From positions 62,001 to 126,000 of the forward strand of contig DXEM01000027.1 of NCBI GenBank assembly GCA_019114985.1: a stretch of 64,000 bases of DNA, read 5' to 3'. Source of the stretch: Candidatus Anaerostipes excrementavium (GTDB lineage Bacteria > Bacillota > Clostridia > Lachnospirales > Lachnospiraceae). Shown piece by piece: positions 20,348 through 35,443 of this stretch (the stretch's first letter is position 1; every line of letters starts with the position of its first letter). A program made the translations under genes and the position numbers. Below the pieces are notes generated by a model. The model was not told where the DNA came from. It saw only the letters and a program-made list of their open reading frames with translations, and ran no database searches.

Positions 20348-20389
20348 ATCTTATCCTCCGTTCTTAAAAATTCACTTTACCGGCTCTTT

Positions 20390-21169
20390 TTAATCTTCTC
20401 TTGTCAATTTCACAACGATCTCTTCCGCAATCTCCTCGACCCGTTTATGATCTGTATTTACGATGACATCCGCTGCAGCTTCGTATTTCGGACGCCGCTC
20501 TTCCATCATCTTGGTAATAAACGCCGTATTCTTATTTCCTCTTAACAGCGGCCTCTCATCACTGTCTTTGACACGCTCTAAAATCACTTCCGGAGATGCA
20601 GTCAAAAGAACGACTTTACCGTTTTTCTTCATCTCTTTCACATTCTCATCTCTAAGCGCAACACCGCCTCCGCAGGAAATAATCTGGTTATTGCCTTTCT
20701 GCAGTTCAATGAGCAGGTTCGTTTCACAATTTCGGAAGTAAGTCTCTCCATATTCTTCGAAAATCTTATTGATTGACATTCCTTCCTTCTCTACAATCAC
20801 CTGGTCCATCTCAACTTGCGGGGACGCCAGGATCTTGCTTAAATAATCCGATACGGTACTTTTTCCAACGCCCATAAATCCAATCAGTAAAACATTGTGA
20901 GTAAACAGGGTTCTCGCCTGGATTCGTCTGCTGTTTTCCAATATATATGCAAAAATATCCAAAATCTCGTTTTTATATGTATTCTCGCTCACGTGGGCCA
21001 TCAACATCTTCCTCTGCCGTTTTTCCTGTTCCGGCTGAAGAATCGGAAGTCCATTCTGCTTCTTGTAAACCATGATCTCCTTGATAATATCCATTCTTTC
21101 TTCAAGAACGGAGACAATCTTCTTATCGCAAAGATCCAATCTCTGTCTGATTTCTTCTAATTGATTCAT
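20390..21169 (-). CDS. Chorismate mutase-shikimate kinase fusion
   Basis: This protein of about 259 residues has two domains. Residues 1-85 form an AroQ-type chorismate mutase helix bundle (LEEIRQRLDLCDKKIVSVLEERM). Residues about 92-259 form a shikimate kinase with the P-loop GFMGVGKST, the substrate-binding DQVI and GGGVALR motifs and the RPLL lid. The fusion would phosphorylate shikimate and rearrange chorismate to prephenate in aromatic amino-acid synthesis. The start at 21169 has AAGGAAAG upstream; an earlier in-frame ATG at 21217 adds 16 charged residues and is less likely. It lies next to the quinate/shikimate-type cluster but looks biosynthetic. Confidence 0.9.
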   Translation of the reverse strand: MNQLEEIRQRLDLCDKKIVSVLEERMDIIKEIMVYKKQNGLPILQPEQEKRQRKMLMAHVSENTYKNEILDIFAYILENSRRIQARTLFTHNVLLIGFMGVGKSTVSDYLSKILASPQVEMDQVIVEKEGMSINKIFEEYGETYFRNCETNLLIELQKGNNQIISCGGGVALRDENVKEMKKNGKVVLLTASPEVILERVKDSDERPLLRGNKNTAFITKMMEERRPKYEAAADVIVNTDHKRVEEIAEEIVVKLTRED

Positions 21170-21280
21170 TGTAAGTCTTTCCTTTTCTTTTTCTCGTGTT
21201 TCTGCCTTTGTTCTCATCCAATCTAGGCGGGCAGTCTTTACTCAGTATAGCATAAAGCCAAAGTTGTTTTCAATGGTTTC

Positions 21281-22168
21281 TCACAGCACAGAGTAGTTCT
21301 TTTTTATGAATCGAATAAAATCCTTTGCAGCAGGCGCAAGATACTTATTTTTCTTTGTCACAAGATAAACATATCGTCTGATTTCCGGGGATGAAATTGG
21401 AACTGTGCAGACATCCATTGTCTGAAGAAGCGGGATCTTTGGCATAATTGCGATTCCAAACCCGGCTGCGACCAGTCCGGCAACAGAAGAATCTTCCTCT
21501 CCCTCATATGCAAATTTTGGCTGACATTTGATTTGCGCAAATAACTGGCTGATTACCGGCCGCAGGCCGCTGTTTTCCGAAAACGCGATATATGGATAGT
21601 CAATTGTATCCTTTAAATCAACAGAATCTGCTCCCGCCAATGGATGATCCTTCGGCACGATCAAGACCAGTTCCTCTTTGGTAATCGGATAAAATTCCAA
21701 ATCTTTTTCTCCATTTACATAGGAAGCAAATACGAAATCATACACTCCATCCTTTAATTGAGCAATCATTTGCTTTGTGGTTCCCTGTCCAAAAGAAAAC
21801 TTGATGCGGTTTCCTTCCTTCTCTTTTAAATAATTTTTCAACATTTCCGGGATCAGATGACTTCCAAGGGTGTAAATATATCCAATATCCAAAAATCCTC
21901 CTTGGATTCCGGATGATTCAATCAAGATCCTCTTCCCTTCATCCAGCATCTCCAATGATTGTTCTACATAACGCAGAAACAAAGCGCCATATTTGGTCAG
22001 TTTGGCATTCCTCCCTTGTTTTTCAAACAGCTTGACTCCCAGTTCACTCTCCAAACAGGAAATGGCATGGCTTAAACTTGGCTGGGTGATGGACAGGTGT
22101 TCCGCTGTTTTCGTATAATGTTCCTCTTTCGCAAGCGCCCGAAAATAATACAAATGGTTCAAATTCAT
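21281..22168 (-). CDS. LysR-family regulator, first copy
   Basis: This 295-residue LysR-type regulator has an N-terminal winged helix-turn-helix (HYTKTAEHLSITQPSLSHAI, about 17-36) and a co-inducer domain from about 90. It is divergent from the first flavin oxidoreductase gene. A T-N11-A palindrome at 22248-22262 just upstream of that gene's -35 box is the expected activation site. It closely resembles the second LysR protein at 32329-33219, so the two are probably duplicates. A hydroaromatic acid such as shikimate is an attractive but unproven co-inducer. Confidence 0.92.
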   Translation of the reverse strand: MNLNHLYYFRALAKEEHYTKTAEHLSITQPSLSHAISCLESELGVKLFEKQGRNAKLTKYGALFLRYVEQSLEMLDEGKRILIESSGIQGGFLDIGYIYTLGSHLIPEMLKNYLKEKEGNRIKFSFGQGTTKQMIAQLKDGVYDFVFASYVNGEKDLEFYPITKEELVLIVPKDHPLAGADSVDLKDTIDYPYIAFSENSGLRPVISQLFAQIKCQPKFAYEGEEDSSVAGLVAAGFGIAIMPKIPLLQTMDVCTVPISSPEIRRYVYLVTKKNKYLAPAAKDFIRFIKKNYSVL

Positions 22169-22247
22169 GTTATCACTCTTCCTTTATTCCTGAATCATCC
22201 AGTATTTTCACTTTATGGATCGTTTTGTATTTATTTTATCATATGGG

Positions 22248-22262
22248 CTTTAGAAACTAAAG
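22248..22262. promoter_or_regulatory. LysR-type T-N11-A palindrome, first copy
   Basis: CTTTAGAAACTAAAG is a perfect interrupted palindrome (arms CTTTAG/CTAAAG) containing T-N11-A. It lies about ten bases upstream of the -35 box of the flavin oxidoreductase promoter, the usual place of a LysR recognition site. Confidence 0.6.
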
Positions 22263-22271
22263 GGAAATTCA

Positions 22272-22300
22272 TTGCATTTGTATACACACTTTGCTATAAT
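22272..22300 (+). promoter_or_regulatory. Promoter of the first flavin oxidoreductase
   Basis: TTGCAT (22272-22277) and a perfect TATAAT (22295-22300) are separated by 17 bases, giving a transcription start near 22307. The start codon follows at 22342 with a GGAGG site. Confidence 0.7.
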
Positions 22301-22341
22301 TATGGTAAAAAGAATCAAATTTAAGTTGGAGGAATATCATT

Positions 22342-24330
22342 ATGGCAGCGAAGAATTTTCCTAAATTATTTGAACCATGTACAGTAAAATCCATGACACT
22401 GAAGAATCGAATCGTCATGACTCCAATCGGGACTAATTTTGCTGAACACACTGGTGAAGTGAGTGAAAAAATTATCGAATATTATAGACAGCGCGCAAAA
22501 GGCGGAACCGGCCTCATTATCGTAGAGGGCACCAGCGTTTATTCTCCTCAGGGTTCCTCTGGGGCTTACCAGCTGAGAATTGACCACGATAACTATATCC
22601 CGGGCCTTTACCGCTTATGTGAGAAAGTACACGAATATGGAGCTAAGATCAGCATCCTGCTGAATCATGCAGGAGCGGCTGCAAATGGAAGCATTACGAA
22701 CATTCAGCCTGTCTCTGCATCTGACATCCCGACTCGACAGGGAGGAGATATTCCTCGTCCATTGACCAAGGATGAGATCCTTACTATCGTGGATAAATTC
22801 GCGCAGGCAGCCAAACGAGCTGTCACTGCAGGTTTTGATGCCGTAGAGATCCAGGCCGGCCACGGTTATCTCTTGAATCAGTTCCTTTCTCCGACAACGA
22901 ACGACCGTACCGATGAATTCGGCGGCTCCAAAGAAAACCGCGCACGCTTTACAACTTTGGTATTAAAAGCTGTTCGTGAGACCGTCGGCGAGAATATTCC
23001 GATTTTCCTGAATATCAGTGCAGATGAACTTGCAGAAGGCGGAAACACATTAGAAGACACAAAAGAAATCGTTGAATATTTCAAAGAGTATGTGGATGTA
23101 TTCTCTGTATCCGCAGGACTTACCTGCTCCATCCAGTATCAGTATGACGCAGACTATCTTCCTGACGGATGGAAATCTTTTATGGCAAAAGAATTAAAAG
23201 AATCCACCGGAAAACCTTGCCTGACCAGCGGAAATATCCGTGAACCGGAAGTAGCAAACCGCATCCTTGCCGATGGAGAAGCTGATTTTATTGCAATCGG
23301 CCGCGGATTGATTGCTGATCCTGAATGGGTGAATAAAGTACAGTTCGGCAATTCCGACGATATCAATCGATGCATCTCCTGCAACAACGGATGTACTGCT
23401 ACTTTAGGAGATGAACCAATCCGATGCACCATCAATCCATCTATTGTTTCCGGAGAATATTACAAGAACCGCACATTGAAGAAACCATGCAACGTTGTTG
23501 TAATCGGCGGCGGAACCGCCGGATTGGAAGCGGCCTGCACCGCTGCTGAAGTCGGATGTTCCACTGTATTGATCGAGAAGACAGACAAGCTTGGCGGATT
23601 AGCCAGACGTGTCGGAAAGATGCCGAACAAACGCCGCCTTGGATTTTTCCCACAGTATTTGGAGCACCGCGCTTCCAGACTTAAGAACTTATTCATTCTT
23701 AAGAACACAGAGGCTACCATCGATTTGGTAGAAGGCTGCAAACCGGATATCGTTGTGAATGCTACCGGATCTTCCCCTCTTCTTCCTGATATCAAGGGGT
23801 TAAAAGAAAACCTTGAAGCAGGCAATGTAGCAACGATTTTTGACCTGGTCGATCATGTAGAAGATTATGAAGATAATATGGAAGGCAAGAAAGTCGTTGT
23901 AATCGGCGGAGGAAATGTCGGCCTTGACGTTGTTGAATTTTTCGCTCCAAGAAAAGCCGATGTCACGATTGTAGAACAGAAAGCACGTTTTGGAGAGACT
24001 CTGGACTTTATTACCAGAACCGGATCTCTTGCAATGTTAAGCCGCTTCGGAGTACACCAGTATCCAAACGCTTCCCTTCTGGAAGTAAAAGAAGATCGTT
24101 TCATTGTCAGACACGATTACAAAGACATTGAACTGGAATTTGATTATGGATTCATCTGTCTTGGAATGCAGTCTGCAACTCCTGCTTTGAAGGAACTGTA
24201 CGATCACTTTATCTATGAAGGAATCGAAGTCCTGAATATCGGCGACAGCGCTCAGAGCCGCCGAATCATCGAAGGTGTCAAAGAAGGCCGTGATATCATT
24301 CTTTCTCTGGAGAGACAGAATTTTATCTAA
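22342..24330 (+). CDS. NADH:flavin oxidoreductase, three-domain Old Yellow Enzyme type, first copy
   Basis: This 662-residue enzyme is built like 2,4-dienoyl-CoA reductase, BaiCD/BaiH and trimethylamine dehydrogenase. Residues 1-340 form an FMN TIM barrel (NHAG at 108-111, HGYLLNQFLSPTTN from 174 with Y176). Cysteines C344, C347, C351 and C362 should bind a 4Fe-4S cluster. Residues 384-662 bind FAD/NAD(P)H, with GGGTAG at 389-394 and a second glycine motif near 517. Such enzymes reduce C=C bonds conjugated to a carbonyl. A paralogue lies at 33351-35348. Neighbouring aroD/aroE and transporters suggest 3-dehydroshikimate or a related enone as substrate; this is inference. Confidence 0.92.
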   Translation: MAAKNFPKLFEPCTVKSMTLKNRIVMTPIGTNFAEHTGEVSEKIIEYYRQRAKGGTGLIIVEGTSVYSPQGSSGAYQLRIDHDNYIPGLYRLCEKVHEYGAKISILLNHAGAAANGSITNIQPVSASDIPTRQGGDIPRPLTKDEILTIVDKFAQAAKRAVTAGFDAVEIQAGHGYLLNQFLSPTTNDRTDEFGGSKENRARFTTLVLKAVRETVGENIPIFLNISADELAEGGNTLEDTKEIVEYFKEYVDVFSVSAGLTCSIQYQYDADYLPDGWKSFMAKELKESTGKPCLTSGNIREPEVANRILADGEADFIAIGRGLIADPEWVNKVQFGNSDDINRCISCNNGCTATLGDEPIRCTINPSIVSGEYYKNRTLKKPCNVVVIGGGTAGLEAACTAAEVGCSTVLIEKTDKLGGLARRVGKMPNKRRLGFFPQYLEHRASRLKNLFILKNTEATIDLVEGCKPDIVVNATGSSPLLPDIKGLKENLEAGNVATIFDLVDHVEDYEDNMEGKKVVVIGGGNVGLDVVEFFAPRKADVTIVEQKARFGETLDFITRTGSLAMLSRFGVHQYPNASLLEVKEDRFIVRHDYKDIELEFDYGFICLGMQSATPALKELYDHFIYEGIEVLNIGDSAQSRRIIEGVKEGRDIILSLERQNFI

Positions 24331-24345
24331 TATCTTTAAGACATA

Positions 24346-24395
24346 AAAAGGAGGCAATTGCCGGTACCATATAAGACCGGCAATTGTCTCCTTTT
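24346..24395. terminator. Bidirectional terminator
   Basis: An almost perfect long stem AAAAGGAG-CAATTGCCGGT / ACCGGCAATTG-CTCCTTTT with a 10-base loop is followed by GTTTTG. It lies between the flavin oxidoreductase and the converging YqeG gene. Confidence 0.9.
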
Positions 24396-24420
24396 GTTTT
24401 GTCTGTATTCCAGACAAGAA

Positions 24421-24942
24421 TCATCTATTTCTTTTTCTCTTATAATATCTCCAAAGAATGATTTTTTCAAAATAGCGTTTCACAACAATCTGGATTTCCT
24501 CTTTTGGATGGATCGGCTTTACAAGGATACTATGAATTCCGGTACGGTTAGCTCCATAGATGTCTGTAAACAGCTGATCTCCTACAAACAACGTATTCTG
24601 CTTATTGGTTCCCATCATCTCCATCGCCTTCTCATATCCTTTTACGGAAGGTTTATTCGCCTTGTAGATATAATGTGTTCCTCCCACATCCTGACAGAAC
24701 TTTTTCACCCTGGGTTCCCGATTATTGCTGGTAAAGCAAAACTCGTATCCAATCTTCTTCAAACGATGAAATAGCTGCTTTGCCTGCTGATTCGCCGGCA
24801 TATCATGACGGACCAGTGTATTATCAATATCAAAGATCACACCTCGGTATCCTTTCTCATAATATTCTTCAAAATTGATATCATAGGTACTTCTGATATC
24901 TTCTACAGGGTAAAACTTCTGAAACATTCTCTTACTCTCCAT
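24421..24942 (-). CDS. yqeG: YqeG-family HAD phosphatase
   Basis: This 173-residue HAD IIIA phosphatase has motif I in VIFDIDNTLVRHD (about 34-46), motif II serine/threonine in FCFTSNN near residue 75 and motif III/IV in LFVGDQLFTDI near 123. The C-terminal helix is basic. It is a single gene between two plus-strand genes. Its substrate is unknown; the family is common in Firmicutes and related to mitochondrial phosphatidylglycerophosphatases. Confidence 0.9.
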   Translation of the reverse strand: MESKRMFQKFYPVEDIRSTYDINFEEYYEKGYRGVIFDIDNTLVRHDMPANQQAKQLFHRLKKIGYEFCFTSNNREPRVKKFCQDVGGTHYIYKANKPSVKGYEKAMEMMGTNKQNTLFVGDQLFTDIYGANRTGIHSILVKPIHPKEEIQIVVKRYFEKIILWRYYKRKRNR

Positions 24943-25163
24943 TCTTTTTCCGTTGTTTTTTTTATTTTATAATACCTTTCTTTTCCGTGCAATATATTTT
25001 TCACCAATTGCTCTTTCGCGAATTAAATCGAAAAATTTTTTCCTGTTTTTTACACATTTCTACTTTCATTCTCTGTCATTTTCATATATGATATATATAG
25101 TTAATAGCAACGAAATGATTCCTTAACTATCGTTCTTTCATTTTCGAAAAAGGGGGGCTTCCA

Positions 25164-26225
25164 TTGAATCCAAATCATTTAACAAGCGCGATGATTGATA
25201 AGATCGTGGAGCGCAAGATCGAAGATATGGCCAAGGATCCGAAAGCCACGATCAGACAGCTTATGAACTACTTCTGCCGCTTCTCATCCAGTCGTTTCCA
25301 GACTCCTATATTTTCAATTTTACAGCATCTTCTTGCCAATGATGACAGCCAGTATTATATTATGATTCAAAACTTACTGCAAAACGTATCCCATTCAGCT
25401 ATCAAGAACTTAGGTATTAATCTCGGATATAACAGCTGGACCAGAGGCGCTCAGACCGTCCGCTCTGCCATGCAGAAAGCCGGATACTGCATTCCTTGGA
25501 TCTTAATCTTCCGATGGAATCCCGCAAAAACCAATACCGTGAATTTAAAAAATATGAATCGCTTTATTCGGGATGCCAACAAGCTTGGAATCTATGCGTT
25601 CTGCATTCGGCAGGAAATTCCTCACCAGTCTTTTGGAGAAATTTTTGAGCTGTTCGACAAACATTCCGACAGTACTTTTTTCTGGTTCCTTCCAAACCAA
25701 ATGCTTGCTCCGATTCATCTGGATATGATTCGAAAATGTGAGAATGTTCTGGCGCTTTTTGACAGCGATGAATCCTATACATACCGCAATGTTTCTCTGC
25801 TTAAGGAACGGAAAGCATTATATGGCATTTATCATACCTATACTTCTCTTCAAACTTTTGACAACGGCAATCAATGGATGGATTACTATAAGATGTATGA
25901 AACACCTTTTGTTTTCATGATTCCCGATGATTCCTGCAGTCAGGAAGATCAGGATGCGGTCTCCGCTTATATTGAAGAAGTTCGTGCAACCCAGCAGTAT
26001 CCGTTTTATATTTTTGATTTTTATCGTGATATTCAGGCAATTAACGAGGCAATCTCCGGTTCAGATTGTTATATGGACATCGGTTCAGATGGGCAGCTGA
26101 TCTATCCAAAGACGACCCAGATATTCTTCCATGATTCCAGGCTGATCGGATATCTGGCAGCTTCCATGCCTGCTACAGCACGCACCCCAAAACAAAAAGA
26201 CTGGAACCCAAATCCGGAATTTTAA
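25164..26225 (+). CDS. Unrecognised protein resembling a cysteine-less radical-SAM/SPASM fold
   Basis: This 353-residue protein is one I cannot place with certainty. An N-terminal helical region (1-110) is followed by a stretch spaced like a radical-SAM barrel. IPWILIFRWNPAKT is where the CxxxCxxC loop would be, NMNRFIRDANKLGIYAFCIR is like the segment before GGEP, VLALFDSD follows, and late YMDIGSDGQLIYPKT resembles the SPASM-type segment ending in PC. The cluster cysteines are absent, so no iron-sulfur cluster is expected. The TTG start is preceded by a run of six G after AAA. It stands alone, with a terminator after it. Confidence 0.6.
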   Translation: MNPNHLTSAMIDKIVERKIEDMAKDPKATIRQLMNYFCRFSSSRFQTPIFSILQHLLANDDSQYYIMIQNLLQNVSHSAIKNLGINLGYNSWTRGAQTVRSAMQKAGYCIPWILIFRWNPAKTNTVNLKNMNRFIRDANKLGIYAFCIRQEIPHQSFGEIFELFDKHSDSTFFWFLPNQMLAPIHLDMIRKCENVLALFDSDESYTYRNVSLLKERKALYGIYHTYTSLQTFDNGNQWMDYYKMYETPFVFMIPDDSCSQEDQDAVSAYIEEVRATQQYPFYIFDFYRDIQAINEAISGSDCYMDIGSDGQLIYPKTTQIFFHDSRLIGYLAASMPATARTPKQKDWNPNPEF

Positions 26226-26237
26226 AATCATAGATTC

Positions 26238-26278
26238 AAAAAGGCGATATACTTCCCATCGAAGTACGTCGCCTTTTT
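26238..26278. terminator. Bidirectional terminator
   Basis: Stem AAAAAGGCGA-TACTTC / GAAGTA-TCGCCTTTTT with a short loop lies between converging genes (the radical-SAM-like gene and dctP-like gene). The T-run on either strand is provided by the stem ends. Confidence 0.85.
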
Positions 26279-26312
26279 CATTCTCTCATGGGCAGAAATT
26301 ATCTTATATGTT

Positions 26313-27347
26313 TTATTTTTCCACACCCTGAAGATAGGAGTCTACCAACTCTTCTGATACGCTGTCTTCAATTTCCTGATAGATATCAGAGGATGCCTCT
26401 CGAATCTGTTCATGTACTTTATCGCTTAATTTCACGATCTTTGTTCCGCTGTCTTCGATGATCTTGATTCGATCCTCAATTCTCTCATCGGACGCTTTTC
26501 TTGCGTATTCTTTTGCCGTCTCTGATGCCTGTGTGATGATCTCCTGCTGTTCTTTCGGCAAATCATTGAAAAACTCATCGCTGACAATCAGAGAAATATA
26601 ATGCGGCAAGTGATTGGTTTCTACCACATAATCTTGCTGTTCATACAGTTTGCTGGATACAATGACCTCATAAGGATTCTCCTGCGCATCGATTGTTCCC
26701 TGCTGCAGTCCAATATAAACTTCACTGAACGTCATCGGCGTCGGATTGGCGCTTAAAGCTTTCCAGAAATCCAGGTGGTAACTGTTTTCCATTGTTCGGA
26801 TCTTCTGACCTTTGAAATCTTTGATATCCTTGATCTCTTTATTGGTAGACATGACACGGAACCCTTGATCCGCATATCCCAAAAGCTTATATCCGCCTTT
26901 CTCATAGACTTTTTCCATTTTTTGATAAAATTCCGGATTATCCACCGCATTCCTTGCTTCTTCAATTGTTGTAAAAGCGCTTGGAAGGTCAAATACCGCC
27001 GTCTCAGGAAGGAAGGTTACCTGCGGCGCTGTATTCTGAACCACAAACGGGATATCGCCGTCTTTGCAGCTCTCCAGCAATTCTCGGTCTCCTCCCAGGG
27101 TACTATTCGGATATACTTCAATCTTCATTTTACCATCGCTTAATCGGCTGACTTCATCTGCGAATTTCTCCGCATAAAGCTGTGTTACCGTATCTTCCGG
27201 GCTGGATGTACCAAGCGGCCATGCGTATCGCTGCACCTCATCATCCGAGCTATCTTTTTTGCTGCAGCCATAAAGGCCAGCCAATCCGAATCCAAACATC
27301 GCTATGCACAAGCCGATCAGACACATTTTCCATTTTTTCATCATCAT
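26313..27347 (-). CDS. dctP: TRAP transporter substrate-binding lipoprotein (DctP type)
   Basis: This 344-residue extracytoplasmic binding protein captures an organic acid for the TRAP permease. The signal peptide ends with lipobox GLYGC, lipidating C28. The DctP features AEKFADEVSRLSDGKMKIEVYPN, the LGGDRELLE segment and IRTMEN near residue 183 (arginine that binds the carboxylate) are visible. The start triplet ATGATGATG overlaps the end of the large permease gene. It is the last gene of the small permease, large permease, binding protein operon. Quinate or shikimate is the suggested cargo from context. Confidence 0.92.
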   Translation of the reverse strand: MMMKKWKMCLIGLCIAMFGFGLAGLYGCSKKDSSDDEVQRYAWPLGTSSPEDTVTQLYAEKFADEVSRLSDGKMKIEVYPNSTLGGDRELLESCKDGDIPFVVQNTAPQVTFLPETAVFDLPSAFTTIEEARNAVDNPEFYQKMEKVYEKGGYKLLGYADQGFRVMSTNKEIKDIKDFKGQKIRTMENSYHLDFWKALSANPTPMTFSEVYIGLQQGTIDAQENPYEVIVSSKLYEQQDYVVETNHLPHYISLIVSDEFFNDLPKEQQEIITQASETAKEYARKASDERIEDRIKIIEDSGTKIVKLSDKVHEQIREASSDIYQEIEDSVSEELVDSYLQGVEK

Positions 27348-28642
27348 GCACCTCCCAATAATACAAGGCTAATCTGCGGAATAAACGTGATCAGCAAAAG
27401 CGCTGCAAGGAAACATACAATTAACGGCATTGCCTTTTTGGCGATCTGCATGATCGGAATTTCCGTCAGCGATGACGCAACAAACAAGTTCACTCCGATT
27501 GGAGGTGTGACAAATCCAATCGCAAGATTGACGACCATCATAATACCAAAATGAATCGGATTCATGCCAATTGCAGTGGCAATCGGAAGCAGAATCGGCG
27601 TTAAAATCAAAATCGCCGGAGTTGTATCCATGACCATTCCAACCAATAACAGGAAAATGTTAATCACAAGCAGAATCACAATTTCATTATGGAAGTTTCC
27701 AAGGATCCATTGACTAATCGTCTGCGGAACCTGCATCAGCGTAAGCACCCTGGAAAATGCTGTTGATGCTGCCAGGATAAATAAGATCGGCGCGTAGGTT
27801 TTCACTCCTTCTACCAACATCGGCCAAATATCTTTTACCTTCATGGAACGATATATAAACATACTGACAATCAGAGAATAAAATACGGAAATAACCGCAG
27901 CCTCTGTCGGTGAAGCAATTCCTGTGTAAATACATCCAAGAATGATAACCGGACTTAAAATCGCAAAGAAACTATCTTTGAATACGCCAAAAAATCCTTT
28001 CTTATGAAGTTGGTCTACTTCTTCGTGAATCTTTTCTTTGTCTTCTCCATGTCTTTTACAATAAAATACCGCATAGACCATCAGCAAAACACCGATTAGA
28101 ACTCCCGGAACGATTCCTCCAATGAACAAATCACTGACAGACTCTCCTGACGCCATTCCAAACATGATAAATGGAATGCTCGGCGGAATAATAACGCCCA
28201 GTCCTCCGGCAACCGCTACGATTGCAGTAGCAAAGGTCTTGTCATAACCAAGTTTTATCAGGATCGGTATCGTCATACTTCCCACAGCCGCTACCGTTGC
28301 CGGTCCGGAGCCGGAAATCGCTCCGTAAAATAAACAGGTTACAATAACCGCACAAGGCATTCCGGCAGTAAGCTTTCCGATAAAGAAAGCAAACACATCA
28401 AAAATCTTTTTAGAAATTCCGCCTTTTGCCATGATCATTCCGGAAAGTACGAACATCGGAACCGCCAGAAGCGGAAAACTGTCAATTCCGCCCAGCATGG
28501 AACGAATAACAAAGGTACCGCTGGCTGTAAAAGAAGGATCAAAAGCTCCTGGAAGAACAGAAACGATTCCCAATCCAATCGAAATCGGAATCGCAATGAT
28601 CAAACACAGGAAGAAAATAATAAATACTGCTACTGCTGACAT
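27344..28642 (-). CDS. dctM: TRAP transporter large permease (DctM type)
   Basis: This 432-residue membrane protein has about 12 hydrophobic segments and the DctM hallmark regions GSGPATVAAVGSMTIP near residue 110 and GLGVIIPPSIPFIMFG near 146. It couples sodium flow to substrate uptake with the DctP and DctQ partners. It overlaps the small permease gene by 13 bases and the binding-protein gene by 4 bases, so the three are translated together. Confidence 0.95.
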   Translation of the reverse strand: MSAVAVFIIFFLCLIIAIPISIGLGIVSVLPGAFDPSFTASGTFVIRSMLGGIDSFPLLAVPMFVLSGMIMAKGGISKKIFDVFAFFIGKLTAGMPCAVIVTCLFYGAISGSGPATVAAVGSMTIPILIKLGYDKTFATAIVAVAGGLGVIIPPSIPFIMFGMASGESVSDLFIGGIVPGVLIGVLLMVYAVFYCKRHGEDKEKIHEEVDQLHKKGFFGVFKDSFFAILSPVIILGCIYTGIASPTEAAVISVFYSLIVSMFIYRSMKVKDIWPMLVEGVKTYAPILFILAASTAFSRVLTLMQVPQTISQWILGNFHNEIVILLVINIFLLLVGMVMDTTPAILILTPILLPIATAIGMNPIHFGIMMVVNLAIGFVTPPIGVNLFVASSLTEIPIMQIAKKAMPLIVCFLAALLLITFIPQISLVLLGGA

Positions 28643-29130
28643 TGTTCTTCCTCCTTATCTTTTCCTATCGCAATTTTGAATTCAACGATCCAACGCTGAA
28701 TAATCCGAATGGCTACTAATAAAAAGCTTACCAAAGGCGCCGCCTGAATATAGTACATCGGAATTCCGCAGGCAGGACTGACCTGTCCGCTTTCAAAAGC
28801 ACTTCTTAAATAATGCACAGAAAATGGGATCAAATAAAAGAAGAAAATCAACTCGAACGTATGATTGACAACTTTAAAAATCGCTTGTCCTCTTCTCGGG
28901 AATAATGCAACAAACTGCTCGATCTTAATCGAAATACACTTTTTTGTACAATAGCTGACGCTGATAAATGCAGACCAGATAAACAAATATCTTGTGATTT
29001 CTTCGGACCAGGATAAGGACGCTCCAAGGGCATATCTTGCAAATACCTGGATACCCATAATCAAGGTCATCGCAATCAGCAATGCTACCATGAGAAATTC
29101 TTCTAAATTCTCATTCAGCCATTTTAACAT
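28630..29130 (-). CDS. dctQ: TRAP transporter small permease (DctQ type)
   Basis: This 166-residue protein has four hydrophobic segments, with the family motif ARYALGASLSWSEEITRYLFIWSAF spread over residues about 31-55. It forms the membrane complex with the large permease. It is the first gene of the TRAP operon and lies about 50 bases after the terminator of the aroE-MFS-aroD operon. A TATAAG -10-like element lies in that gap but no good -35 is visible. Confidence 0.93.
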   Translation of the reverse strand: MLKWLNENLEEFLMVALLIAMTLIMGIQVFARYALGASLSWSEEITRYLFIWSAFISVSYCTKKCISIKIEQFVALFPRRGQAIFKVVNHTFELIFFFYLIPFSVHYLRSAFESGQVSPACGIPMYYIQAAPLVSFLLVAIRIIQRWIVEFKIAIGKDKEEEQCQQ

Positions 29131-29181
29131 ATTGAACCTCTCTCTCTTTTGGATTTACTATGTTCTTATAGAATAAGCGGA

Positions 29182-29215
29182 AAACTGGCAGAGACTCATG
29201 GTTCTCTGCCAGTTT
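29182..29215 (-). terminator. Terminator of the aroE-MFS-aroD operon
   Basis: A perfect 13-bp stem AAACTGGCAGAGA/TCTCTGCCAGTTT with an 8-base loop is followed on the minus strand by TTCCGCTTATTC. It starts 17 bases after the aroD stop codon and separates it from the TRAP operon. Confidence 0.85.
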
Positions 29216-29231
29216 CATGTTACCTGTCTTC

Positions 29232-29993
29232 TTATAGGCTCTTATGAAGCAGTTCCAAAACAGTCTTTAAATCTTCCACTCCCATCTGTCCTGGTGCGGA
29301 AGCTTTCTTTGCAGCTCCAAATGTCAGAGCTGAACCGAACACTTCTCCGCACAGACGGCTGATGACACCGGTTCCTGCCATGGACATTGTAATGATTGGG
29401 CGATCTGCATACTCTGTATACATCTCTTCTGTCGCTGCCAGCAAAGTCAGTACATCTCTTTTGCATGTCGGCATAACAGCAATCTTTGGAATATCTGCGC
29501 CAAGATCCTGCATTTTGCGCAATCTCTTCACGATTTCATCTTTTTCCGGCGTCTTATCGAAATCATGATTGGATGCTACGACTTTTACACCACATGCATG
29601 AGCTTTCTCTACGATCTCTTTTACAATCTCGTCTCCTGTGAATACTTCCACATCTACAAGATCTACATATCCGGAAGCCGCAGCTTTCTGATTCAGCTCT
29701 TTATAAGCTTCTGCTTCTATTGCTTTTTCGCCGCCTTCTTTTGATGTACGGAAGGTAAATAAAATCGGAGTATCTTTTAAGGCGTCTCTCAAATCTTTCA
29801 GGACATCCTCAACTTTTTCAAAATCAAATACATTTTCAAACCAGTCAACGCGCCATTCTACGACATCTACCGGAATGCTGTCAAATGTTTTTGCTTCTGT
29901 AATAATTTCTTCTTTCGTTACGCCAACGATTGGCACACAAATTTTAGGAACACCGCTTCCGATCTCAATATTTCTTACTTTTACCGTGTTCAT
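29232..29993 (-). CDS. aroD: Type I 3-dehydroquinate dehydratase
   Basis: This 253-residue class I dehydratase converts 3-dehydroquinate to 3-dehydroshikimate through a Schiff base. Catalytic residues fall at the canonical positions: E46 in EWRVD, H143 in SNHDF and the Schiff-base lysine K170 in DIPKIAV. The substrate-binding MSMAGTGVISRL is near residue 205. Type I enzymes can serve biosynthesis or quinate catabolism. Here the gene is last in an operon with an AroE-family enzyme and an MFS transporter, between LysR/flavin-reductase modules, which favours a catabolic role. Confidence 0.95.
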   Translation of the reverse strand: MNTVKVRNIEIGSGVPKICVPIVGVTKEEIITEAKTFDSIPVDVVEWRVDWFENVFDFEKVEDVLKDLRDALKDTPILFTFRTSKEGGEKAIEAEAYKELNQKAAASGYVDLVDVEVFTGDEIVKEIVEKAHACGVKVVASNHDFDKTPEKDEIVKRLRKMQDLGADIPKIAVMPTCKRDVLTLLAATEEMYTEYADRPIITMSMAGTGVISRLCGEVFGSALTFGAAKKASAPGQMGVEDLKTVLELLHKSL

Positions 29994-30026
29994 TCATTTA
30001 TCCTCCTATTTTACCGATTCACAAAC

Positions 30027-31217
30027 TTATTTCGCTGCTTCTTCTGCGTTCTTAAGCAGTACGCCATATCTTGCATTTACATATACAGCCAAAAGAACAC
30101 CGATGATTGTAATCGCAATATTCATAACAATAACACCAGATGCCGTCATCTTAGCGGCTGCTGTCAGAATCGTATAGTTACACAAGCTTGACGCAATCAT
30201 AACCAAGCTGGTAATTGTTCCTTTGATTTTCGGGAACAGATCGTTGACAACTGCAGTCGCCATCTGAAGGACTCCGCCTGCTGCTGCATAACCGATGACA
30301 AATGCTCCTATGTAACAGATTGTCGGGCTCTTAATCAAGTATACTAAAACAAGCATAACTGCTGAAATTGCCGGATAGATCACCAGAAACCGCACCTGTT
30401 TGAATTTCGTAATCAAAAGGCTGGTAACTACCAATGCTACCATTGTTCCCGCAGAATAGTAAGTCTGCATGATGGAAACACTTTCTGACGCAATACCAGC
30501 AACGTCTTTTCCAAATGTCTGAGCACAGTTCAGCCATAACTGGAAAGTCGCTGTACTTGTAAATCCGATCAGAATCAAAGCGACACTTTCGATTGAAAAA
30601 TGTGCATTCTTTAAATTATCAATAAAGGATTCTGATTTTCCGCTCTCAGATGCTGCCGGGAATGGAGCAAAAATTGCCAAAACTCCAAGTACTGCGATCA
30701 CGATTCCTGCTACCAGCGGAAGCATCAGATAAGACATACTGCTTCCTGCCGCAACACCTAAGAAAAACGGAATTAACAGCTGAGCAACAGAGATAAAGAA
30801 CTTAATTCCCATTGTCGCAATTCCGGTGTACTTATAAATAATTTCCGCTACAGCAGGGTAAGTTGCCGTGTCAAGGAAGGAGTTTGCAATACCTCCCAAT
30901 ACCGCTGCCACATAAGCCACTGTCGTATTCGGTGAAAATGCGATACCTACAAAGAAGATAACATAAGACGCACATCCAATCAATACAGAAAGACGACGGC
31001 CTAATTTATCAGATAATGGTCCTGCAAACGGAAGGGAAATCAGACGTCCCAGTCCCAATGCTGCCGCAATGGAAGTAACCGCCATAACATCATTTAATCC
31101 CCACTGCTGGGCAAGCATTTCTTTCACAACCTGCTGGCTTAAGATAGAGCATCCGATTCCATGAACAAAATAGTTCAAATAAAGAATCAGGGCGCTTGGT
31201 AAATATTTTTTATCCAT
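30027..31217 (-). CDS. MFS transporter between aroE and aroD
   Basis: This 396-residue transporter has 12 predicted helices. The loop GPLSDKLGRR after helix 2 is the general MFS motif. It lies 27 bases after aroE and 33 bases before aroD on the same strand, so quinate, shikimate or their reduced product is the likely substrate. Uptake versus product export cannot be told from sequence. Confidence 0.88.
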   Translation of the reverse strand: MDKKYLPSALILYLNYFVHGIGCSILSQQVVKEMLAQQWGLNDVMAVTSIAAALGLGRLISLPFAGPLSDKLGRRLSVLIGCASYVIFFVGIAFSPNTTVAYVAAVLGGIANSFLDTATYPAVAEIIYKYTGIATMGIKFFISVAQLLIPFFLGVAAGSSMSYLMLPLVAGIVIAVLGVLAIFAPFPAASESGKSESFIDNLKNAHFSIESVALILIGFTSTATFQLWLNCAQTFGKDVAGIASESVSIMQTYYSAGTMVALVVTSLLITKFKQVRFLVIYPAISAVMLVLVYLIKSPTICYIGAFVIGYAAAGGVLQMATAVVNDLFPKIKGTITSLVMIASSLCNYTILTAAAKMTASGVIVMNIAITIIGVLLAVYVNARYGVLLKNAEEAAK

Positions 31218-31244
31218 TTTAATTATTTCCTCTCTTTTTTTCTC

Positions 31245-32120
31245 TTAATCGTATTTAATATCCAGAACTTCTTTCATATGATCAATCGGCATATGTTTGC
31301 CTGTCCATAAGTGGAATGCCGCGTCTCCCTGGAACAGCATCATGCCAAGTCCGTTCATTGTCTTGCATCCTACTTCTTTTGCCATCTTAAGAAGAGCTGT
31401 CTCTCTTGGAGCATAGATTGTATCTGTAACAATCAGGTCCGGACGGAAGAAAGATTTATCCGGTACAACAGACTGGCCTTCCAACGGTTTCATTCCAACA
31501 CCTGTTGCCTGCGCGAATAAATAACTGTCTGCGATTTCTTCTCTTAATTTCTCTTTATCATCCAGATCATACAGATGAACAACACAGTCTGTATTTTCAC
31601 GAATCTTCTCTACCGTCTTTTCTGCATTCTCCCAGAACTTATCTTTGATATTAAAGATTGACATTTCTTTCACACCATCTAAAGCTGCCTGAATTTCAAT
31701 CGCTGTTGCAGCTCCTCCGGCTCCTGTGATTGTCATTTTTTTGCCAATCACATCGATATCATTATCTTTTAAAGACTGCATGTATCCGATTCCGTCTGTG
31801 ATATGTCCGATCAGTTTCCCATTGTCATTTACAATTGTATTCACGGCTCCTGCCATCTCAGCTGCCGGTGAAAGCTCATCCAAATACTGTCCTACGACTG
31901 TCTTGTTTGGCATGGACACGTTTGATCCTACCATTTTTAAAGCTCTTAATCCTTTTACTGCGTCTTCCAATGTATCGTTGTCTACCTCAAATGCAAGATA
32001 AGCGTAATCTAATCCTAATGTAGCAAATGCTTCATTATGCATTGCCGGTGAGCTGGAATGACGAATCGGATAAGCCATTAAGCCGATCAATTCTGTGTGT
32101 CCTGTAATTCTTTCTGCCAT
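31245..32120 (-). CDS. aroE: Shikimate (or quinate/shikimate) dehydrogenase, AroE family
   Basis: This 291-residue dehydrogenase interconverts shikimate and 3-dehydroshikimate, and in some family members also quinate and 3-dehydroquinate. Substrate-binding serines are S22 and S24 (HSSSPAMHN), the catalytic lysine is K73 (SMPNKT) and the catalytic aspartate is D109. The usual NTD motif before D109 reads HITDG here. AVNTIV (92-97) and the nucleotide loop GAGGAATA near 134 are normal. It leads the operon with MFS and aroD, opposite a LysR gene. Context supports a quinate/shikimate catabolic enzyme rather than the biosynthetic AroE. Confidence 0.92.
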   Translation of the reverse strand: MAERITGHTELIGLMAYPIRHSSSPAMHNEAFATLGLDYAYLAFEVDNDTLEDAVKGLRALKMVGSNVSMPNKTVVGQYLDELSPAAEMAGAVNTIVNDNGKLIGHITDGIGYMQSLKDNDIDVIGKKMTITGAGGAATAIEIQAALDGVKEMSIFNIKDKFWENAEKTVEKIRENTDCVVHLYDLDDKEKLREEIADSYLFAQATGVGMKPLEGQSVVPDKSFFRPDLIVTDTIYAPRETALLKMAKEVGCKTMNGLGMMLFQGDAAFHLWTGKHMPIDHMKEVLDIKYD

Positions 32121-32254
32121 GTTTTTTCTCCTTTTTTCACTCTTCTAAATTTCTTCGTTTTTGTTATTCCACCCAAAAGTTAATTTTTTAACAACCCGAT
32201 GGCTATATTATAACGCACTTCAATCGATACTTCTAATACATCTTTTTCTATATT

Positions 32255-32275
32255 TTGATAGCTTTTTGCTATCAA
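32255..32275. promoter_or_regulatory. LysR-type palindrome, second copy
   Basis: TTGATAGC and GCTATCAA flank a TTTTT spacer, a perfect 21-bp interrupted palindrome containing T-N11-A. It lies between the divergent aroE operon and the second LysR gene, 53 bases before the LysR start, and is the likely binding site of that regulator. Confidence 0.65.
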
Positions 32276-32328
32276 TCGTGATAAAATATAGTTGTTTGAG
32301 AAATCATTGTCATAAGGTAGGTCTATTT

Positions 32329-33219
32329 ATGAATTTAAATCAGCTATACTATTTTCAAAAGGTTGCCCAATTACAGCATTATCATCAAGCTGCCAGAGAA
32401 TTAAATATTTCTCAGCCTAGCCTGAGCCGTTCTATCTCAAATTTGGAAGAAGATCTGGGGGTGCAGCTTTTCAAGAAAAACGGAAGAAATATTGAATTGA
32501 CCAAATATGGAAAGATTTTTTTGGAACATGTGAATCGGATTTTGGAAGAGGTTAAAATCGCTGAAGATAAAATGCGTTCTTTTGCGGCTTCTTCCGGAGG
32601 ACATATTGATATTGGTTATGTTTTTCCCCTTGCGAAATCTTACATTCCCCACCTGGTCCGCAGTTTTTTGAACCGAGAACAAAACCAAGGGATTACTTTT
32701 TCTCTGAATCAGGAAATTACAAAAGACCTGATCCGAGCCTTAAAAACAGAAAAATACGATGTCATTTTCGGATCGAAGGTTCCGGAAGAGACCGGGATTG
32801 AGTTTATTCCGGTCGTAAACCAGGAAATGGTCATCATTGTACCTCCGGGACATCCCCTAAAGTATAAAAAGCCGCTGCTGCTGGAAGACCTGACAGAATA
32901 TCCTGTCGTTGGCTATGACCGCACCTCCGGACTCGGACAATACACCAATTCTATCTATCGGCAGAATCATATGAAACCATCCATTGCCTTTGAAACCTCC
33001 GATGAAAACGCCATTGCTTCTCTCGTTGCAGAAAACTTCGGAATCGGATTCGTCGCTCACGTAGAGTCTTTGAAGGAATATAACGTGAATATATTACATT
33101 TAGATAACGTAAAACCTTATCATACCGTCTATATGGCCTATTTAAAAGACCATCCTATGATCCCGGCAGTCAGAAAATTCATCGATTTCGTGCTGGAAAC
33201 TATAGATAGATTCTATTAA
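32329..33219 (+). CDS. LysR-family regulator, second copy
   Basis: This 296-residue regulator has its helix-turn-helix at about 17-36 (HYHQAARELNISQPSLSRSI) and a co-inducer domain after residue 90. A longer frame opens at 32161, but the ATG at 32329 is preceded by AAGGTAGG and matches the family N terminus (MNLNQLYYF), as in the first copy. It is divergent from the aroE operon and points towards the second flavin oxidoreductase, so it could regulate both sides. In Listeria a shikimate-responsive LysR protein (QuiR) is known to control quinate/shikimate genes; equivalence here is inferred. Confidence 0.92.
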   Translation: MNLNQLYYFQKVAQLQHYHQAARELNISQPSLSRSISNLEEDLGVQLFKKNGRNIELTKYGKIFLEHVNRILEEVKIAEDKMRSFAASSGGHIDIGYVFPLAKSYIPHLVRSFLNREQNQGITFSLNQEITKDLIRALKTEKYDVIFGSKVPEETGIEFIPVVNQEMVIIVPPGHPLKYKKPLLLEDLTEYPVVGYDRTSGLGQYTNSIYRQNHMKPSIAFETSDENAIASLVAENFGIGFVAHVESLKEYNVNILHLDNVKPYHTVYMAYLKDHPMIPAVRKFIDFVLETIDRFY

Positions 33220-33238
33220 TTTTTAAAATAATATTGAT

Positions 33239-33267
33239 TTGTTAAATATTTGACCAGGTGCTATAAT
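33239..33267 (+). promoter_or_regulatory. Promoter of the second flavin oxidoreductase
   Basis: TTGTTA (33239-33244) and a perfect TATAAT (33262-33267) are separated by 17 bases. The gene therefore has its own promoter and does not depend on read-through from the LysR gene, which ends at 33219. Confidence 0.7.
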
Positions 33268-33350
33268 GAAATCATCCGAACACACCCAAAGATAATTTTC
33301 ACAACCTCACAGGAAACAAAATTTGTTTATTTTTTGGAGGTTCCAATTCT

Positions 33351-35348
33351 ATGAAATCTAACTATAAGAATATTTTTTCACCATTGACAATCAAAAACAT
33401 GACGATGAAAAATCGCGTCATGATGACTCCAATGGGTACAAACTATGGAGAACAGACCGGTGAGATGAGTTTTCTGCACATTGATTACTACACCGAAAGA
33501 GCCAAAGGCGGTGTTGGTTTAATCATGGTAGAAAATGCCAGTGTGGACTCACCTCTTGGTTCCAATGGTACAACACAGATCCGTATTGATCATGACAACT
33601 ATATGCCTCGCTTTTTCAAACTTTGCGAAACGATCCATTCACACGGAGCCTGCATTGGGCTTCAGCTGAACCACGCCGGCGCTTCTGCTCAGTCTAAACG
33701 TACGAATATGCAGCCGGTATCTGCTTCCAACATTCCTTCTAAGGAAGGCGGCGAAACTCCTCGTCCATTGGAAATTGATGAGATCTATGCGATTGTAAAA
33801 AAATATGGAGAAGCTGCAGCACGCGCTCAGGCATCTGGTTTTGACTGCGTTGAGATCCATGCCGGACACTCCTATTTGATCAGCCAGTTTATGTCCCCAA
33901 CGACCAACAAGAGAACCGATGAATTCGGCGGATGTCCGGAAAACAGGGCTCGCTTTGCCAAATTAGTTATTGAAGAAGTCCGCAAGCAAGTAGGACCGAT
34001 GTTCCCAATCTTCGTTCGTCTCAGCGCCGATGAATTCGTAGAAGGCGGAAATACATTGGAAGATACATTAGAGCTGGTTTCTTATTTCCAGGATGAAGTC
34101 GATGTTTTTGATGTATCTGCAGGATTAAACAGTTCTATTCAGTATCAGATCGATGCGAACTACTTAAAAGACGGCTGGAGATCTTACATGGCGAAAGCTG
34201 TCAGAGATAAGTTTGGAAAGCCTTGTGTTACGATGGGAAATATTCGTGATCCTCGTGTTGCAGATGATATTCTGGAAAGAGGCGACGCAGATATCATCGG
34301 TATAGGCCGTGGATTAATTGCAGACCCTCACTGGGTGAAAAAAGTTGCAACGGGCCTTGAAGACGAAATCAGAAAATGTATTTCCTGTAATATCGGATGT
34401 GCCGGAAACCGTATCGGAGTAAACCGTCCGATTCGTTGTACGATCAATCCGACCATCAACTCAGGATATGATTATAAGAAACATAAAATTAACAAACCTT
34501 GCAATGTGGTTGTCATCGGCGGCGGTACTGCCGGATTGGAAGCAGCATGTACAGCTGCAGAGGTTGGATGTACTACGTTCCTTTTCGAGAAAAAAGACGT
34601 TCTTGGCGGATTATCTGTAGAAATCTCTAAGATTCCAGACAAGAAACGTTTAGGAGATTTTCCGGCTTACCTGGTGAACAGAGCTTCAAAACTTACGAAC
34701 CTGTTTATCTTTAAGGGACAGGAAGCGACTTTACCGCTCATCAAAGCGCTTCACCCGAATATTATTGTAAACGCAACAGGTTCCAATCCGCTGCTTCCGC
34801 CAATCAAGGGACTTCATGATCACATCGACAAAGAAGGTTCCAAAGTGGCTTCTATTACCGGCATGATCAACAGCCTTTCTTCCTATCCGGAAGATTGTTC
34901 CGGCAAGAAAGTTGTCGTTGTCGGCGGCGGAGCTGTAGGTCTTGACGTGGTAGAATATTTCGCTCCAAGAGGTGCTGATGTCAGCATCGTAGAAATGATG
35001 CCTCAGATCGGAAAAGACCTGGATCCGGTTTCTAAATGCGGAACAAATGCATTAATGAAGAAACACGACGTAAAACAAATGCCAAACACCGCTCTTTGCG
35101 AAGTCAAATCGGATGCTTTTGTTGTAAAAGCCGGCGAAGAGGAAAAAGAACTGCCATTTGATTATGGATTTGTATGCCTGGGAATGCGCGCAAATGCACC
35201 TGTTTTGGATGAAATTCGAGAAGAATTCGCAGATACAGATGTTGAGATCATCAATATCGGTGACAGTGTCCGCGCAAGAAGAATCATCGATGGCGTACAG
35301 GAAGGCCACAATATTTTAAGCACGCTTGCAGATATGGACTATCTGTAA
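33351..35348 (+). CDS. NADH:flavin oxidoreductase, three-domain Old Yellow Enzyme type, second copy
   Basis: This 665-residue paralogue of the enzyme at 22342-24330 has the same layout. The FMN barrel spans 1-340 (NHAG at 107-110, IHAGHSYLISQF from 169 with H170, H173 and Y175). The cluster cysteines are C343, C346, C350 and C363. An FAD/NAD(P)H region from about 386 carries GGGTAG. It differs from the first copy in having H170 where the other has glutamine, and in a longer loop before the fourth cysteine. The two copies may reduce different intermediates, for example 3-dehydroshikimate and a second enone. TTGGAGG lies before the ATG. Confidence 0.92.
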   Translation: MKSNYKNIFSPLTIKNMTMKNRVMMTPMGTNYGEQTGEMSFLHIDYYTERAKGGVGLIMVENASVDSPLGSNGTTQIRIDHDNYMPRFFKLCETIHSHGACIGLQLNHAGASAQSKRTNMQPVSASNIPSKEGGETPRPLEIDEIYAIVKKYGEAAARAQASGFDCVEIHAGHSYLISQFMSPTTNKRTDEFGGCPENRARFAKLVIEEVRKQVGPMFPIFVRLSADEFVEGGNTLEDTLELVSYFQDEVDVFDVSAGLNSSIQYQIDANYLKDGWRSYMAKAVRDKFGKPCVTMGNIRDPRVADDILERGDADIIGIGRGLIADPHWVKKVATGLEDEIRKCISCNIGCAGNRIGVNRPIRCTINPTINSGYDYKKHKINKPCNVVVIGGGTAGLEAACTAAEVGCTTFLFEKKDVLGGLSVEISKIPDKKRLGDFPAYLVNRASKLTNLFIFKGQEATLPLIKALHPNIIVNATGSNPLLPPIKGLHDHIDKEGSKVASITGMINSLSSYPEDCSGKKVVVVGGGAVGLDVVEYFAPRGADVSIVEMMPQIGKDLDPVSKCGTNALMKKHDVKQMPNTALCEVKSDAFVVKAGEEEKELPFDYGFVCLGMRANAPVLDEIREEFADTDVEIINIGDSVRARRIIDGVQEGHNILSTLADMDYL

Positions 35349-35382
35349 GATTCTCCATCCTCCATATAAGTATGATAGAAAG

Positions 35383-35415
35383 AGAGCCATGAAACCCCGA
35401 ATGTTTCATGGCTCT
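35383..35415. terminator. Terminator after the second flavin oxidoreductase
   Basis: Perfect 13-bp stem AGAGCCATGAAAC/GTTTCATGGCTCT with a 7-base loop. The following plus-strand sequence (GCGTATTT) is only modestly T-rich. Confidence 0.75.
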
Positions 35416-35443
35416 GCGTATTTACAAATAATTTTGTTATTTT

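Follow-up and report, generated by a model that had tools for sequence, protein, structure and literature searches.

In a 64,000-nucleotide stretch of Candidatus Anaerostipes excrementavium DNA (contig DXEM01000027.1, positions 62,001 to 126,000; this whole stretch is called here the window, and coordinates count from its first letter), a gene for an ene-reductase of the Old Yellow Enzyme (OYE) type, OYE2 (33351–35348, plus strand), lies close to genes for AroE and AroD, and this linkage is found in distant bacteria far beyond chance. The cluster is probably a module for the uptake and reduction of quinate and shikimate, in such a way that OYE2 would reduce the C=C bond of 3-dehydroshikimate as an electron sink. 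Gene content, protein families and linkage were read directly, and neither the dehydroshikimate dehydratase type QuiC2 nor another dehydroquinase was found in the assembly; the substrates, products, direction, cofactor and regulation of the route we infer from these data. An earlier note on this DNA had listed the genes with their positions, and the open reading frames (ORFs) are in place, with families that agree by Pfam and NCBIfam.

The co-occurrence of OYE, aroD and aroE genes in other genomes, which the earlier note had proposed to look for, was found in several groups. Of 395 Lactobacillales genomes, sampled evenly, 49 matched OYE2 at E 1e-100 or better and 45 carried an OYE2-type protein (E < 1e-200, 54–60% identity), with an AroE match at 400 bp or less from its gene in 44 of the 45, the exception being genome G401. 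By contrast, no AroE or AroD was present in the 6–18 kb read around five distant OYEs of the same sample (34–41% best identity; loci L138–L142). Among 397 Lachnospiraceae genomes, 31 had OYE2 (E 1e-180 or better), and AroD was within 5 kb of it in 20 of these; an AroD match anywhere was detected in 30 of the 31, versus 220 of the 397 overall. A third set consisted of 80 named loci, the best 80 of 569 confirmed OYE2 relatives, which include Lachnospiraceae, Enterococcus, Klebsiella, Mangrovibacter and Sporolactobacillus. Here an AroE-type match was at most 3 kb from OYE2 in 60 loci, and AroE or AroD at most 8 kb away in 67 (58 of the 65 whose flanks each exceed 8 kb). Genes for AroE, AroD, LysR regulators and transporters of the major facilitator superfamily (MFS) and of the tripartite ATP-independent periplasmic (TRAP) type recur around OYE2 more widely than those of any other family in these 80 loci, where not all neighbouring ORFs were given family names.

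A different ene-reductase was detected at the same place in some Lactobacillales. For this, the surroundings of AroE were read in 25 hand-picked genomes of this order without OYE2, taken from the stronger AroE matches. In 11 of the 25 loci a FAD_binding_2 protein lies near AroE and AroD, with an FMN_bind domain detected in most; eight belong to one family, 55–63% identical to the protein of Ligilactobacillus salivarius (one of them 99%), and the other three, 29–32% identical to it, are fusions with an OYE barrel. An ApbE-family gene, expected for flavinylated FMN_bind proteins, adjoins the flavoprotein in 3 of the 11 (by Pfam for one, by clustering for the others). On the megaplasmid of L. salivarius UCC118, a divergent LysR gene is followed by genes for a QuiC2-like isomerase (55% identity with that of Listeria), a short-chain dehydrogenase/reductase (SDR), the FMN_bind/FAD_binding_2 flavoprotein, AroE and AroD. 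Fumarate-reductase-type flavoproteins reduce α,β-unsaturated carboxylates, and both shikimate and dehydroshikimate are such acids. The presence of two unrelated ene-reductase types at one place argues that C=C reduction belongs to the pathway, an argument limited by QuiC2, which accompanies the fumarate-reductase-type flavoprotein in several loci.

The SDR gene of L. salivarius (locus L171, 6415–7242), flanked by those for QuiC2 and the flavoprotein and placed otherwise in several Lactobacillales loci, may encode the hydroaromatic dehydrogenase described in earlier literature. The fusions of an OYE barrel with FAD_binding_2 next to AroE and AroD have around 970 residues (L150, 2786–5692; L162, 13878–16778; L163, 3138–6050), with FMN_bind detected in those of L150 and L162; among the matches listed, plasmid-borne relatives of the L163 fusion are annotated as flavocytochrome c.

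In the route that we propose, the TRAP and MFS transporters would import quinate or shikimate, and the YdiB-type AroE would oxidise quinate to 3-dehydroquinate and shikimate to 3-dehydroshikimate, two compounds that AroD would interconvert by dehydration. The sole α,β-unsaturated ketone within reach of AroE and AroD would be 3-dehydroshikimate. With flavin mononucleotide (FMN), a 4Fe-4S cluster and flavin adenine dinucleotide (FAD)/NAD(P)H sites, OYE2 would reduce its C1=C2 bond to give 3-dehydro-dihydroshikimate, the Fe-S/FAD relay passing the electrons from NAD(P)H, and an AroE-type dehydrogenase (either of the two AroE proteins of this genome) would then reduce the ketone to dihydroshikimate. 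From quinate, the balance would be a net use of reducing equivalents, and, NADH-driven enone reduction being chemically favourable, the route would give a fermenting anaerobe an electron sink. Shikimate, when present, would switch the genes on through the QuiR-like LysR proteins.

Reduction rather than aromatisation is the best-supported reading, and it is partly supported, because OYE2 is linked to AroE and AroD, QuiC2 was not found here and a different ene-reductase occupies the same site in some Lactobacillales. The earlier note had proposed that the organism reduces 3-dehydroshikimate instead of aromatising it; this idea gains from those data, and loses a purely catabolic cluster, a contrast with Listeria and two equivalent OYEs, as described below.

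What looks new is the assignment of genes and how widely they occur; the pathway itself is not new. According to an excerpt of PMC13204703, which cites Filannino 2015, quinate may be converted by lactic acid bacteria via shikimate to dihydroshikimate and used as hydrogen acceptor in place of pyruvate and fructose, and Whiting and Coggins 1971 is cited for L. plantarum in an excerpt of PMC8149962. Excerpts of PMC9171043 and PMC9324987 deal with the oxidation and aromatisation of quinate-derived acids, and one of PMC11325843 with QuiA in Gilliamella. A literature search, weak because subscription journals were poorly covered, found no ene-reductase gene assigned to quinate or shikimate reduction.

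AroD (29232–29993, minus strand) is a type I 3-dehydroquinate dehydratase by Pfam and TIGR01093 (260.2 bits against a cut-off of 139.3), and the residues E46, H143 and K170 claimed for it in the earlier note are all present. The genome is a 2.69 Mb draft in 40 contigs, 97.7% complete, the window being located on contig C18; AroD is the sole type I dehydroquinase found in it, and a search for a type II enzyme across the genome gave none. As aroB (3-dehydroquinate synthase), aroC (chorismate synthase) and two genes of the 5-enolpyruvylshikimate-3-phosphate (EPSP) synthase type lie elsewhere in the genome, AroD should also serve aromatic biosynthesis, unless the unassembled few percent hold another dehydroquinase, and the cluster is no longer to be seen as a purely catabolic set. 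The YdiB-type AroE of the window (31245–32120, minus strand) passes model NF001313 (527.1 bits, cut-off 431) and narrowly misses the quinate/shikimate dehydrogenase model NF009390 (348.2 versus 349); its motifs HSSSP, MPNKT and TDG begin at residues 21, 70 and 108, and its best structural matches are 3tnl, a shikimate dehydrogenase, and YdiB (1npd, 1o9b). A second protein with an AroE N-domain is encoded at position 63559 of contig C31, adjoining an FGGY-family (glycerol-kinase-like) gene. In the earlier note, a genome with no other aroD or aroE would have made this cluster the biosynthetic set; a further aroD was not found, and the second AroE is present. A role of the C31 protein as the classical biosynthetic AroE is weakened by its 57% identity to the Listeria qui2-type AroE, versus 53% to the window AroE.

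An alternative to the reductive route is that the cluster is a salvage or biosynthesis set, in which imported quinate or shikimate would reach chorismate via AroD, AroE and shikimate kinase and the OYEs would have another job. We hold it to be unlikely. It would account for the sole AroD, for the adjacent fused chorismate mutase-shikimate kinase gene (AroKCM, 20390–21217, minus strand; Pfam CM_2 and SKI) and for the aroB, aroC and EPSP-type genes elsewhere, and it agrees with Nicoliella, which has an AroE-AroD-MFS block without OYE among aromatic biosynthesis genes, and with the 14 of the 25 Lactobacillales AroE loci without OYE2 that also lack the fumarate-reductase type. It leaves unexplained why OYE2 is so close to AroE in nearly all the Lactobacillales that carry it, and why another type of ene-reductase is found at that place in L. 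salivarius and others.

Some of these facts, and others, weigh against the reductive reading. The sole AroD and the adjacent shikimate kinase also fit a biosynthetic role, and the 14 loci just mentioned indicate that an ene-reductase is not universal beside AroE. In 11 of the 31 OYE2-bearing Lachnospiraceae there is no AroD within 5 kb: it is distant on the same contig in six, on another contig in three and at an unlisted place in one, and one has no match. Likewise, neither AroE nor AroD is close to OYE2 in 13 of the 80 named loci, six of them with a chorismate mutase-shikimate kinase beside OYE2 and seven with none of these genes, three of the latter on contigs shorter than 8 kb. The genomes counted are related, so that the linkage counts are not independent events, and many of the 45 OYE2-bearing Lactobacillales appear to be relatives of Listeria and Enterococcus. 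Listeria, Blautia and Lachnotalea additionally have a dehydratase of the QuiC2 type, and thus the enone can be aromatised there. Finally, linkage by itself would fit dehydroshikimate as well as another conjugated substrate arriving with quinate, such as caffeate from chlorogenate, and the hydrolases and the Limosilactobacillus reductase described next point in that direction.

According to this other possibility, the OYEs would reduce the hydroxycinnamate freed with quinate from chlorogenate (caffeate to dihydrocaffeate), and the cluster would take care of both parts of the ester. Chlorogenate delivers quinate and caffeate at once, the relatives of the three-domain OYEs include enoate and cinnamate reductases, and CocE/NonD and SGNH/GDSL hydrolases are encoded one to three genes past the Listeria block. 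Flavoprotein reductases of hydroxycinnamates occur in lactobacilli, and an excerpt of PMC13039779 cites Gaur and Ganzle 2024, on a Limosilactobacillus NADH-dependent 2-ene reductase reported to act on hydroxycinnamates. We judge it quite improbable all the same, since AroE, AroD, MFS, LysR and TRAP are the families that recur most widely next to OYE2 in the 80 loci, a comparison confined to the neighbouring ORFs that received a family name and made with no search for esterases in other parts of those genomes.

The Listeria loci bear on whether the route ends in an aromatic product. A Listeria-type genome of 3.0 Mb has a LysR-OYE-AroE-AroD block (L126) and, elsewhere, a LysR-QuiC2-OYE-AroE-MFS-MFS block (L127). 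The AroE of the first differs from PDB 3tnl at one of 292 aligned positions, the first aligned residue aside, and the same four-gene block was found in the L. monocytogenes NCTC7974 record; the OYE of this locus, that of Lmo0488, is annotated merely as an oxidoreductase. Lmo0488 is reportedly the regulator QuiR, which in the work of Prezioso et al. (2018) is said to bind shikimate and to control genes for protocatechuate formation, the names qui1 and qui2 coming from the same work. For the dehydratase-like protein encoded next to the second type of OYE, the best match of known structure is Lmo2234, which we take to be QuiC2, reportedly the subject of Xue et al. (2020). Blautia, Lachnotalea, Terrisporobacter and others have, near their OYE2 module, a second one composed of QuiC2, an OYE 31–33% identical to OYE2, AroE, MFS and often LysR. 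Listeria, whose comparable cluster ends in protocatechuate according to the earlier note, thus does not serve as a contrast without a reductase, as its QuiR locus holds the same OYE-AroE-AroD block in addition to the QuiC2 locus.

When a QuiC2 query was run on 12 genomes, strong matches appeared in three (Blautia massiliensis, Lachnotalea glycerini and Vagococcus allomyrinae), weak ones (23–27% identity) in two and none in seven, the genome of the window included, so that the OYE2 module does occur without QuiC2. The absence of a 3-dehydroshikimate dehydratase claimed in the earlier note agrees with this: none was recognised among the window genes scanned with Pfam and NCBIfam, and the QuiC2 query was negative in the whole genome, where the AsbF and two-domain QuiC types were not searched. 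With this negative, which covers the QuiC2 type in a 40-contig draft 97.7% complete, we hold it to be very unlikely that the route ends in protocatechuate or catechol through a dehydroshikimate dehydratase elsewhere in the genome, with the OYEs only detoxifying the resulting quinones, although OYEs do reduce quinones and QuiC2-type genes accompany the AroE-AroD set in Listeria and in Ligilactobacillus.

Concerning the proteins themselves, no Oxidored_FMN protein other than OYE1 (22342–24330, plus strand) and OYE2 was found in the genome. Both belong to the three-domain class (FadH/BaiCD/NCR type), with the FMN TIM barrel, the 4Fe-4S cysteines and the Rossmann domains all present by Pfam and alignment; the cysteines of the C-x2-C-x3-C-x12-C cluster (C343, C346, C350 and C363) are invariant in 49 aligned sequences. 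The roles of the OYE motif residues are known from YqjM, and OYE2 shows them as an H-x2-H-x-Y triad (H170, H173 and Y175), with H170 and Y175 kept in all 40 aligned sequences of its group and H173 in 39. Polar positions such as N62, N72, Q76, N107, S112, K131, N260, Q266 and D268 are also invariant in the 40, and they mostly differ in eight sequences of the QuiC2-associated OYE, so that this set would fit the expectation for a fixed polar substrate. A structure model of OYE2 (mean predicted local distance difference test, pLDDT, 93.6) is closest to 2-naphthoyl-CoA reductase (NCR) and 2,4-dienoyl-CoA reductase (DCR). Proteins 95% identical to OYE2 are found in Anaerostipes butyraticus and Candidatus Anaerostipes avistercoris.

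The two ene-reductases of the earlier note are indeed both three-domain flavin/Fe-S proteins, but differ in their active sites. OYE1, with 57% identity to OYE2, fits the His/His/Tyr motif only partly, having Q in place of H170 (OYE2 numbering); R223, N260 and Q105 are also changed, to N, T and L, and all four residues are invariant in the 40 sequences of the OYE2 group. In a tree of 107 OYE sequences, built by a quick method that leaves its placement unsure, OYE1 is on a long branch. Another genome of the genus (G647) has a second OYE, also 57% identical to OYE2, around 9 kb from its OYE2. A second enone could be the substrate of OYE1, or the gene may be in decay.

A second enone is also part of a more extended variant, in which the cluster would strip hydroxyls from the quinate ring by repeated β-elimination and ene-reduction to give deoxygenated cyclohexane carboxylates, unrelated flavoproteins (OYE and the fumarate-reductase type) having been recruited for the same step. 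In the first round AroD would take off the C1 hydroxyl and OYE2 would reduce the enone; in the second, the saturated 3-ketone would lose the C5 hydroxyl, and the divergent OYE1 would reduce the new enone. Acids of this kind were once proposed as gut precursors of hippurate. We regard this variant as rather unlikely, and keep it as a tentative extension of the reductive route.

Bile acids or bilirubin were considered too as substrates of OYE2, having in mind that the BaiCD model (NF041087) is the best NCBIfam match of both OYEs and bilirubin reductase, long form (NF045599), the third. OYE1 and OYE2 score 480.5 and 475.8 bits with the first and 331.4 and 347.7 bits with the second, far under the curated cut-offs of 825 and 750, and the recurrent neighbours of OYE2 are quinate and shikimate genes, which makes such a function extremely improbable.

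With regard to the layout, aroE is the first gene of a leftward block aroE-MFS-aroD-TRAP, all on the minus strand. The MFS gene (30027–31217; Pfam MFS_1), a probable quinate or shikimate importer, has counterparts near AroE, AroD or OYE in many relatives, and the TRAP genes encode, by Pfam, the small membrane subunit DctQ (28630–29130), the large one DctM (27344–28642) and the solute-binding protein DctP (26313–27347). DctM is within 8 kb of OYE2 in 27 of the 80 loci, and relatives carry DctP homologues near OYE2. The gaps are 27 bases between aroE and MFS, 33 between MFS and aroD and 101 between aroD and dctQ. LysR2 (32326–33219, plus strand) and OYE2 are transcribed rightward, and LysR1 (21281–22168, minus strand) and OYE1 form a divergent pair further to the left. 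OYE1 and the TRAP block are split by two genes without an evident link, for a YqeG-type phosphatase and an orphan ORF (25164–26225, 353 residues) with no Pfam or NCBIfam match, whose homologues (55–62%) adjoin TRAP genes in three Anaerostipes-type loci (L010–L012). AroKCM lies just beyond the left edge of the stretch covered by the earlier note, and a homologue is at 8 kb or less from OYE2 in 24 of the 80 loci.

Both regulators are QuiR-like, with Lmo0488 (PDB 5ted) as best solved relative; their identity to the LysR encoded at the Listeria locus is 52% for LysR1 and 40% for LysR2. Two of the three intergenic regions hold palindromes, each different: CTTTAGAAACTAAAG, of the T-N11-A consensus form, between LysR1 and OYE1 (22169–22341), and TTGATAGC-N5-GCTATCAA between AroE and LysR2 (32121–32325), both putative regulatory elements. 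A shared operator motif was sought across the three regions, and none of 16 bases with up to two mismatches was found except A/T-rich runs.

The gap between AroD and the TRAP genes (29131–29231) holds a strong inverted repeat, CTGGCAGAGA ... TCTCTGCCAG, which may be a partial terminator or an attenuator giving the TRAP genes an expression level of their own, and a 13-pair hairpin at 35383–35415, just 3' of OYE2, is the longest terminator-like stem of the region scanned (20300–35500). In that region terminator-like sites numbered 8, against a mean of 12.9 in shuffled sequences, and promoter-like sites 45, against 33.3; an Rfam scan of the whole window gave nothing at gathering scores.

Some OYE2 loci have particular surroundings. 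In Claveliimonas, Mordavella, Dorea phocaeensis and relatives (L048, L049, L050, L053, L054 and L058), OYE2 is beside the chorismate mutase-shikimate kinase with no AroE or AroD within 8 kb. Near the OYE2 genes of Paenibacillus (including a plasmid copy) and of Slackia equolifaciens, an actinobacterium, there are no quinate genes (L059, L065 and L174). The Slackia protein falls among those of Lachnospiraceae in the tree, likely as a result of horizontal transfer. In a Klebsiella pneumoniae record (L173) an OYE-AroE-MFS-AroD-LysR set sits between leuD and sgrR, a chromosomal-looking position.

If the reductive reading is true, it would supply the genes of a reductive quinate/shikimate pathway whose biochemistry in lactic acid bacteria has been known for around 50 years, extend it to gut Lachnospiraceae, Enterococcus, Listeria and Klebsiella, and assign a function to the OYE encoded at the Lmo0488 locus of Listeria; it would also become testable how gut microbes make saturated acids from the cyclohexane acids found in coffee, tea and fruit.

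We compared the cluster with known systems. The reaction proposed for it is that of the dihydroshikimate pathway of Lactobacillus, with the same use as hydrogen acceptor, whereas the L. salivarius locus has the FMN_bind/FAD_binding_2 flavoprotein in place of OYE2, and its relatives likewise or in fused form. NCR and DCR match OYE2 over the whole length of the fold and in the FMN, Fe-S and FAD modules, at only 25–27% identity in the structural alignment, and their substrates are CoA thioesters. With the E. coli ydiN-ydiB-aroD arrangement, which we take to consist of MFS, YdiB-type dehydrogenase and type I AroD genes, the window shares these three types, and its AroE matches the YdiB structures; to our knowledge, the E. 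coli arrangement has no ene-reductase. The Listeria qui1 (Lmo0488) locus shares the LysR-OYE-AroE-AroD set, with identities of 59% for OYE2, 65% for AroE, 61% for AroD and 52% for LysR1, and differs in gene order and in lacking the MFS and TRAP genes, the second LysR and the second OYE; unlike the genome of the window, Listeria also has a qui2-type locus with QuiC2. The qui2 (Lmo2234) locus and its relatives in Blautia, Lachnotalea and Terrisporobacter share the LysR, OYE, AroE and MFS gene types, but their OYE is only around 32% identical to OYE2 and stands beside a dehydroshikimate dehydratase of the type not found in the genome of the window.

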